From Deltaproteobacteria bacterium (GTDB taxonomy: Bacteria > Myxococcota > Myxococcia > Myxococcales > JAHFDP01): a stretch of DNA of 44,886 bases. Shown in pieces: positions 43,125 to 44,886 of the stretch. The stretch spans positions 1-44,886 of the forward strand of contig JAHFDP010000026.1 in NCBI GenBank assembly GCA_023248955.1, written 5' to 3'. Within the stretch, counting starts at the first letter, position 1. Each line of letters begins with the position of its first letter. The notes under the pieces were generated by a model. That model made no database searches, had not been told where the DNA came from, and saw only the letters and a list, made by a program, of their open reading frames with translations. Position numbers and translations under genes: made by a program.

Positions 43125-44222
43125 CTAGTTGATTGGCAAGCAGATGAACAAGACGTCGTCGCCGATGCGCTGGATGCTCGGAGGCGCGAAGCGCATGGCA
43201 TCGGCCATCGTCGACGGCGCCGCCATCGCGGCCCAAGAGAGCCCGCTGCTTCCCACCACGCGTGGTGCGACAAATATCCGGAGTTCGTCGACAAGGCCCG
43301 CGGCGAGAAAGGATCCAAAGACAGTGGCGCCGCCCTCGACCAAAACGTCTAACAGGCCGCGAGCGCCCAGGCGCACGAGGAGATCCTCCAGATCGATGCG
43401 ACCGGAGCGCGTCTTACAAACGATCACTTCGACGCCCCGTTTCTCGAGCGCCTGACGACGTCCAAGCGGTGCAGCCGCAGTGGTGGCCACGATCGTGGGG
43501 GCGTGGCTCTTCAGACAAAAAACACCCGCGGTGAGCGGCAACGTGCAACGCGAATCGAGCATCACCCGTACCGCATCGCGGCCCTTGCCACCGGAACGGC
43601 GCGTGGTGAGCTGCGGATCATCCTTGCGCACCGTTTCCGCGCCGACCAGAACGGCGTCGAATTCATCGCGCCAACGGTGGACCAGCGCGCGCGCATCGGG
43701 GCCCGACACCCAACGCGAATCGCCGCTGGCCGTGGCGATCTTTCCATCGAGCGTGGCCGCGACTTTGAGGACCGCGCGTGCGCGCCCTTTCTGCATGAAC
43801 GTGAAAAAAGCAGCGTTGGCCGCACGGCATTCGGTCTCGAACACTCCGCTCACAACGTCGATCCCAGCGCGCCGAAGCCGCCGCACCCCGCGACCTTTCA
43901 CCAACGGATTGGGATCGATCGTTCCGATGATGACGCGCCGGACACCCGCTGCAATGATCGCATCCACGCACGGCGGCGTGCGACCGAAATGCACACACGG
44001 TTCCAGTGTAACGAAAAGGTCAGCGCCCCGCGCGGCCTGCCCGACCTTCTTGAGTGCCATGACTTCCGCATGCGGTTCGCCAGCGCGCGCGTGAAACCCA
44101 CGCGCAATCACGCGGCCCTTGCGAACGACCAGCGCGCCGACAACTGGATTGGGACTGGTGCGACCTCGCCCCGCTTCGCCCGCCGCGAGCGCCAGGCGCA
44201 TGAAACGAGCGTCCGCTGTCAT
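43125..44222 (-). CDS. ribD: Bifunctional diaminohydroxyphosphoribosylaminopyrimidine deaminase / reductase
   Basis: A 365-residue protein performing two early riboflavin steps. The deaminase domain carries the zinc site: [20 protein letters not shown], then [20 protein letters not shown]. The reductase domain shows [56 protein letters not shown] and [20 protein letters not shown]. Order and length are standard. ATG 44222 overlaps the nrdR stop (ATGA). Confidence 0.95.
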
Positions 44223-44692
44223 GGCTTTCTTGCTGTGGCCCGCGCGTCGAGTAGATCCTTCAGCTCGGTCATGAACTCCGACAGGTCCTTGAACGATCGG
44301 TACACCGAGGCGAAGCGCACATAGGCGACTTCGTCAATCTGCTGCAACTGGCGCATCAGCTCTTCACCAATGGAGGTCGTGGCCACTTCACGCTCGCCAC
44401 TTTCCATTAGTTTTCGCTCGGCGGCTTCGACGACGCTGTCCAACTGCTCGGCGGACACGGGACGTTTTTGACACGCGTGTTGCAGGCCAGCGAGAACTTT
44501 GGTGCGATCATACGGCTCGCGCCGGCCATCTTTTTTTACGACTTGCGGCAGCATCTCTTCCACGCGTTCGTAGGTCGTGAACCGGCGGTGGCAATGGTCA
44601 CACTCGCGGCGGCGTCGGATGACTTGGCCCTCCTTCGAAAGCCGCGAGTCGAGCACGCGGTTATCGAAATCGGTGCAGAAGGGACACTTCAT
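44219..44692 (-). CDS. nrdR: Transcriptional repressor NrdR
   Basis: NrdR represses ribonucleotide reductase genes in response to dATP/ATP. The 157-residue protein has an N-terminal zinc ribbon ([19 protein letters not shown] and [15 protein letters not shown]) and an ATP-cone ([20 protein letters not shown], then [22 protein letters not shown]). The MKCPFC start at 44692 is canonical. It is the first gene of a coupled run with ribD, a common bacterial pairing. The upstream region holds 74-bp repeats. Confidence 0.96.
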
Positions 44693-44720
44693 CGCGCGCT
44701 CATTGGATTCTGGCGCGCGA

Positions 44721-44886
44721 TGGACCCGTAGGGTGGCGCCAGAGGCGCGTTGCAGGAAGACGGGTTCACTGGGCCCTCTGTTGAAAGGGCCAAGTGGACC
44801 CGTAGGGAGGCGCTGGGCGCGCATTGGAAGAAGACGGGCTCATCGCGACCTCGATCGGATGGTCGCGATGGACGCGCAAGGTCGCG
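44721..44886. repeat. 74-bp tandem repeats with conserved hairpins upstream of nrdR
   Basis: The word TGGACCCGTAGGG begins at 44721 and 44795, and a third, diverged unit (TGGACGCGCAAGG) begins at 44869: constant period 74. Each of the first two units contains a GGCGC/GCGC-type small hairpin, a conserved GAAGACGGG-TCA segment and a longer hairpin. The long arms are CGGGTTCACT with AGTGGACCCG, inside which GGCCCT pairs AGGGCC (unit 1), and CATCGCGACC with GGTCGCGATG (unit 2). Arm sequences differ but pairing is kept. The array continues beyond the window. Confidence 0.75.

Follow-up and report, generated by a model that had tools for sequence, protein, structure and literature searches.

A probable mobile element at the start codons of nrdR and other genes in a deltaproteobacterial genome, with leader frames that overlap the host start codons

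Several families of short bacterial repeats are built around hairpins. REP/BIME sequences with RAYT and the ends of IS200/IS605 elements carry a fixed tri- or tetranucleotide at their edge and are mainly extragenic. The mycobacterial interspersed repetitive unit (MIRU) reportedly goes back to Supply et al. 1997. As presented in the accounts cited here, MIRUs are mobile repeats that insert at start codons and contain a frame of their own, whose coupling to the gene has a spacing of -4 nt (PMC12548453), and their units measure 77 and 53 bp (PMC4213456). Rickettsia palindromic elements (RPEs) are portrayed as small palindromic mobile elements possessing a reading frame and often leaving host genes working (PMC10969869). 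Translational coupling by termination-reinitiation is described at ATGA overlaps (PMC6728339, PMC12548453).

The window, i.e., the whole stretch of 44,886 bases analysed here, lies at the very beginning of contig C70 and ends within a tandem array at nrdR (Table 1). Judging from its sequence, this array very probably consists of copies of a small mobile element, non-autonomous and inserting at start codons, with the gene kept translated by termination-reinitiation. The element appears to work like a MIRU, although membership by sequence is unsupported and it would belong to another sequence family, in another bacterial lineage. Shared with MIRUs are insertion at start codons (NTGA) with stop/start overlaps at both ends (21/22 arrays; empty sites at two loci), and a small inner frame coupled at -4 nt with a length of 3n+2 (29 of the 32 units at genes obtained by walking the chains, which are not 32 independent events). 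The unit lengths given for MIRUs, 77 and 53 bp, are likewise both 3n+2. In contrast to MIRUs, the hosts are the genome of the window and genomes of the same order, not mycobacteria, and the encoded peptide differs: MSRAGDDAERSDEEEWRP precedes the stop in the MIRU-core frame, compared with MNPxxxxAPxAPPxGSxASGARP here. The element resembles RPEs, as far as their cited description goes, in being small, palindromic, mobile and frame-carrying; however, those are about 150 bp long and nearly half of them form in-frame fusions inside genes, whereas here start codons are occupied and the leader frame is separate. Unlike the mainly extragenic REP/BIME-RAYT and IS200/IS605 elements, 21/22 arrays lie on start codons; the own genome has no Y1_Tnp match, and G044 and G035 have 16 each. 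With ATGA-coupled genes, as described in the cited papers, the element shares the overlap geometry and the expected mechanism, but those are native gene pairs, while here a mobile element copies the junction.

In the window, conserved TGGACCCGT-type blocks start at 44716, 44790 and 44864, which bears out the 74-bp tandem spacing (74 + 74) claimed by an earlier note on this DNA; by its RTGA boundaries, however, the gene-proximal unit measures 77 bp, so the units are not all exactly 74 bp long. The note had also placed the repeats upstream of nrdR. They do adjoin the gene, but the array actually reaches and includes its start codon (44692-44690, minus strand), and positions 1-42 of the Pfam profile Zn_ribbon_NrdR align to residues 1-42 of the protein read from this ATG. 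Overlooked in that reading were the ends of the units on start codons and their mostly 3n+2 lengths, which give chained RTGA stop/start overlaps. The variable hairpin arms differ between units yet remain complementary, as had been observed, with a single internal mismatch in the second pair (CACTgGGCCCT..AGGGCCaAGTG). Across the source genome (3.83 Mb, 95.6% complete), GAAGACGGGNTCA is found exactly only at 44756 and 44830.

Table 1. Features of the array at nrdR (window coordinates) and further copies in the same genome.
Feature	Position	Strand	Description	Basis
nrdR coding sequence	44222..44692	-	157 aa (without stop), downstream of the array	
nrdR start codon ATG	44690..44692	-	Gene-proximal array boundary	ATGA overlap with leader stop
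Leader frame, unit 1 (77-bp unit)	44689..44769	-	26 protein letters	TGA overlaps nrdR ATG
Leader frame, unit 2 (74-bp unit)	44766..44843	-	25 protein letters	TGA overlaps unit 1 GTG
Unit 3, gene-proximal part	44840..44886	-	Ends at window edge; 100 N next on contig	
Unit 1 variable hairpin	44688..44724		Arms CATCGCGCGC / GCGCGCGATG	Alignment and pair counts
Unit 2 variable hairpin	44765..44798		Arms CACTGGGCCCT / AGGGCCAAGTG	Alignment and pair counts
Unit 3 variable hairpin	44839..44872		Arms ATCGCGACC / GGTCGCGAT	Read from sequence
Unit 1 conserved core	44722..44739		GGACCCGTAGGGTGGCGC	
Unit 2 conserved core	44796..44813		GGACCCGTAGGGAGGCGC	
L064			Three-unit 74-bp array between secY and adk	
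L065			Single unit in front of purA	
L066			Single unit within partial, inverted tRNA-Arg copy	

Past the window, the contig continues with 100 N, one more partial unit that extends the array, a lipoprotein-like gene, glyA and rpiB. The N run lies inside the array (L063:688-787) and is flanked on either side by 26 identical bases; it may represent an unmerged overlap or conceal additional units. In the former case the third unit would measure 75 bp, with its frame continuing into the second leader.

BLAST against the own genome returned three further places with significant matches besides the nrdR array (L064–L066). In the last of them (L066:1123-1230; copy C31) the 74-bp unit is found in the T-loop of the tRNA-Arg copy (anticodon tcg), an intact tRNA-Arg being located at 1363-1439; the inverted fragment looks like an attachment-site remnant. 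A covariance model built from seven units of the 74-bp family (R1) recovers these source units at E 5e-20 to 1e-15, as expected by construction, and additionally detects, in G044 and G035 from the same order, related units of 65 bp. With the own genome included, R1 has matches in at least 3 of 60 genomes at E 0.01 and in at least 3 of 145 genomes of the order at E 1e-4 under strict filters. A second model (R2), built from 13 of the 65-bp units and applied to the 12 genomes of family f7, gave at least 26 matches in at least six of them, 150 candidates being scored per genome; three of the 26, the weak L134 and L142 and the contig-end-cut L133, are excluded from the 22 placed arrays. Members of the 65-bp family thereby stand at 18 gene starts, distributed over G044, G035, G029 and G018, four other genomes of the order. 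The start codon of adk is occupied in two families of the order, by the 74-bp element in L064 and by the 65-bp element in L102, apparently as independent hits.

A scan of genome contigs for the core pattern yielded 18 stretches. Eleven were judged genuine (three inspected directly, the rest recognised as the same loci under other identifiers), all from two MAGs, Deltaproteobacteria bacterium GL140_3_metabat_160_sub and Myxococcales bacterium MAG102. The other seven (Actinomadura, Lysobacterales, Virgisporangium, Chloroflexota, Verrucomicrobia, Micromonospora and Oscillibacter) were judged unrelated, TTCA ends being absent by eye. Carriage by phages or plasmids is unsupported: the exact core pattern gave no stretch in viral contigs, and the adk array had no match to plasmids at E 1e-3.

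The arrays on start codons, all in the sense orientation, comprise three of the four in the own genome and all 18 in G044, G035, G029 and G018; the remaining one is that in the tRNA fragment. Downstream genes include nrdR, adk (twice), purA, aroQ, rplW, pheT, smc, aroC, truA and murD, as well as genes for a DHH family protein, NAD-dependent epimerase, RND transporter, metallo-beta-lactamase fold protein, CoA transferase, SpoVR, CvpA, AAA ATPase and BrkB/YihY. All 20 downstream proteins tested, out of 21 (a 29-aa frame at L136 was left out), match Pfam families, 12 of them with the domain beginning at residue 1-6. Among TGA sites lying on starts or outside genes, starts make up 11% in the own genome (400 kb) and 8% in G044 (83 kb), as estimated with a crude gene caller. 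With a share of 11%, at least 21/22 arrays would fall on starts by chance with a probability of 3e-19, and a share as high as 30% would still give 2e-10, which is far from random survival unless copies elsewhere were lost faster. Of the 21 gene-proximal copies, 19 have GGAG or GAGG no more than 16 nt ahead of the start, the exceptions being unit 1 at nrdR and L135. In ten of the 18 f7 arrays, a count that is partly a matter of judgement, the site reads as a 4-nt overlap between the start and the stop of an upstream frame of at least 187 codons; long open frames ending at L098, L102, L112 and purA were judged spurious and not counted as overlaps.

Empty sites are available for two insertions in G044. 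At its rplD-rplW and pheS-pheT junctions a 65-bp insert is present, and the flanking BLAST pieces abut in relatives. The former insert is absent in 10/10 relatives with the locus (the G041 junction being read by eye) and the latter in 9/9; the empty pheS-pheT sites show a plain ATGA overlap, with ATG starting pheT, in five of the nine and a short or unrelated spacer in four. The base before TGA may differ between the two ends of an insertion (ATG before and GTG after at L100, the reverse at L105), and at L139 only TGA is common to both ends, suggesting that the duplicated or shared target is TGA.

As a consequence of the 3n+2 length, a short frame begins at the start codon preceding each unit and terminates at a TGA overlapping the following start, which is RTG or TTG in all 29 units of such length. 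Canonical lengths of 65 or 74 bp are found in 23 of the 32 units. The other nine are of altered length: 3n+2 is retained in six (17, 26, 29, 59, 62 and 77 bp; p 0.04), the reading frame continues without a stop through two of 66 bp, and the 64-bp truA unit breaks it. By locus, the frame is broken in L135, fused to the gene in L136, and in L112 the distal unit is fused to the next leader. The 65-bp family encodes the peptide quoted above and the 74-bp family MNPxSxxAPLAPPxGSxxPxQxRAx, each with variants and ending at the stop. None of the 18 + 5 leader rows read contains an inner stop in frame 0; such stops occur in 17/18 and 3/5 rows in frame 1 and in 2/18 and 3/5 in frame 2, L106 among the 18 being out of register in these counts. 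The 65-bp family shows little selection on the peptide, with an omega-like ratio of 0.64 versus 0.74 and 0.83 in the other frames; the 74-bp family gives 0.36 versus 2.02 and 0.68, from five sequences only. Coding by the array as a whole was rejected, neither 74 nor 65 being divisible by 3.

In the direction of the gene the element reads [RTGA]ACCCG - GCGCCxxxGGCGC hairpin - CCC(UACG/UUGC-like)GGG - TCCAY - variable hairpin - R[TGA], with variable arms of about 10 bp in the 74-bp family and 6-7 bp in the 65-bp family. The minus strand, expected to be the transcribed sense for nrdR, folds far better than shuffled sequences (z -5.2, 0/200), as is also true of the plus strand (z -4.2, 0/200). In hairpin 1 of the 74-bp family (six distinct units), 6/13 pairs are changed on both sides with 96% of cells paired. 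Over its whole structure there are 12 double-changed cells versus 4.0 in shuffles (0/500), and at most two when the partner is slid; counted as pairs the excess is weaker (6 versus 3.4, reached by 18/500). The 65-bp family has nine double-changed cells versus 2.4 (0/500), but just two double-changed pairs, a value reached by 198/500 shuffles. As the copies are related, cell counts include relatives and are not independent events. Double changes are absent from the two conserved hairpins, whose variation provides no test of pairing. Covarying arms thus support the earlier suggestion of selection for pairing; together with the unrelated insertion sites and the empty sites in relatives, they also favour the mobile repeat that the note had listed among its possibilities.

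The variable hairpin of unit 1 is predicted to pair the nrdR start codon, with a probability of being unpaired of 0.00, and the values are 0.00-0.01 at all three 74-bp loci folded (nrdR, adk and purA). Folding covered 15 of the 21 loci, and 14 could be compared with a joined empty site, nrdR having none: the mean probability, 0.35 when the element is present, hardly differs from the 0.36 of the empty site (Wilcoxon p 0.95). On this comparison the hairpin does not mask start codons in general, and sequestration is predicted for the 74-bp loci only.

We hypothesize the following sequence of events. The element, which measures 74 bp in this genome and 65 bp in related ones, would insert at an RTGA start codon, often one overlapping the stop of the previous gene, and leave TGA at both ends, as seen by empty-site comparison at two loci and read from the sequence at the others. 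Owing to the 3n+2 length, the old start codon would open a leader of about 21-26 codons within the element, ending at a TGA that overlaps the new RTG start, mostly preceded by GGAG or GAGG. The overlaps, the covarying arms, the 3n+2 rule and the exact placement of insertions on start codons are observed directly, while translation of the leader is a matter of interpretation: ribosomes from the native site would translate it, terminate at its TGA and begin again on the start codon overlapping it, and through this coupling the host gene would stay expressed. Such coupling agrees with the description of native ATGA pairs in the cited papers (PMC6728339, PMC12548453). Later copies probably enter the RTGA of an earlier copy or arise by tandem duplication, giving chained leader frames. 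In the 74-bp family the covarying gene-side hairpin is predicted to keep the start codon closed before translation of the leader and, more speculatively, may also be the end recognised in transposition.

The earlier note had listed, among other options, a tandem regulatory RNA. A structured leader of nrdR (riboswitch, attenuator or protein-binding array) kept for the control of ribonucleotide reduction would account for the strong structure and covariation adjoining nrdR and for the predicted pairing of its start codon. We consider it highly improbable, as the same element precedes adk, purA, rplW, pheT, murD, aroC, smc and other unrelated genes, R1 finds it in only those few genomes of the order under strict filters, and an Rfam search (4227 families, gathering threshold) of the four own-genome loci, the window end and seven 65-bp loci had no match on the element, the sole matches being two tRNAs in L066. 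A local minisatellite produced by slippage near nrdR, with chance palindromes in GC-rich DNA, would fit the tandem units and the assembly gap within the array, which is usual for repeats; dispersed homologous copies at unrelated loci, empty sites and covariation refute it and leave it a negligible probability. The RTGA at both ends, the hairpins and the precise insertion would also suit an element bypassed by hopping ribosomes or spliced out, with 65/74 nt skipped or removed and the native start restored. This is barely credible: neither process needs the 3n+2 length that 29/32 units keep, the sites are start codons rather than internal codons, and the leader frame is open. Nor do integron attC sites or CRISPR arrays suggest themselves, given single copies dispersed over start codons.

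An element moved in trans as a single strand by a Y1 (HUH) transposase, in the manner of IS200/IS605 or REP/RAYT, would use the hairpins as transposase sites, and its position on start codons would reflect survival only. The hairpin near the end and the short fixed TGA at the edge are in line with this, and f7 genomes with the element have 16 (G044), 16 (G035), 11 (G047, where the copy is cut by a contig end), 7 (G029) and 5 (G018) Y1_Tnp matches, compared with 0-4 in seven f7 genomes counted as lacking it, among them G013 with a weak match (E 0.0019). However, this contrast was sought after the fact, genome quality varies and kinship is a confounder; a Y1 gene about 1 kb from the array G044:C266 has ends without a model match, and none is apparent by eye; and the own genome, with four arrays and an estimated completeness of 95.6%, has no Y1_Tnp match at E<=1e-5. 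Since the own genome has none, the contrast within f7 is a lead only, and we regard movement by such a transposase as unlikely, though it could be combined with insertion at start codons and coupled leader frames.

Returning to the start-codon element and its resemblance to MIRUs, we also searched for relatedness by sequence. A sequence which we take to be the MIRU core, an identity backed by 53-bp units with ATGA ends, occurs in 19/397 genomes of the order of Micromonospora lutea. Ten of its 28 distinct occurrences (30 loci) have an NTG...NTGA frame through the core and 18 do not; six of the ten frames have boundaries 53 or 50 apart with ATGA at both ends, the 3n+2 length following by construction in this test. 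R2 applied to 24 such loci gave 25 matches up to E 10, none significant (best E 0.04). Conversely, allowing two mismatches, the MIRU core is not a repeat in G000, G044 or G035, with 2, 1 and 5 scattered matches, respectively. In the order of Micromonospora lutea the same core is tandem in L186, L184 and L206, at 51, 54 and 53 bp; the coupled frame is present in the 53-bp array and absent from the other two.

These comparisons suggest that MIRU-type insertion with kept translational coupling is not confined to mycobacteria. In the literature searched, with most subscription papers including Supply 1997 outside its scope, no MIRU-type element outside mycobacteria was found. We tentatively speculate that elements which mimic a cistron and target starts are a general strategy arisen more than once, the present one being sequence-unrelated and non-mycobacterial, with targeting built into its mobility and a hairpin kept by compensatory change. 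Inserts in housekeeping and operonic genes (rplW, pheT, murD, adk and smc) raise the questions of whether coupling protects the host and what aims the element at starts.

The own genome also carries another dispersed repeat (L074-L096), cross-matched by R1 at E of about 1e-5 (around 50 of 68 matches) and set aside, as the 23 listed copies lack TCA at both ends. It has a GGCGCTGGAAGCGCC core with conserved flanks of at least 60 bases per side and in places forms tandems with a spacing of 69 bp; L096, which was read closely, neighbours a lipoprotein-like gene instead of occupying a start codon.

The array at nrdR has a practical bearing on start-codon annotation: a longest-ORF reading runs nrdR through the array, giving 201 aa instead of 157 aa. 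Right before its outermost leader frame (L063:840-870), TATAAACGCGCCGTG can be seen by eye, which suggests that the nrdR transcript could begin at or near the GTG, i.e., be leaderless.
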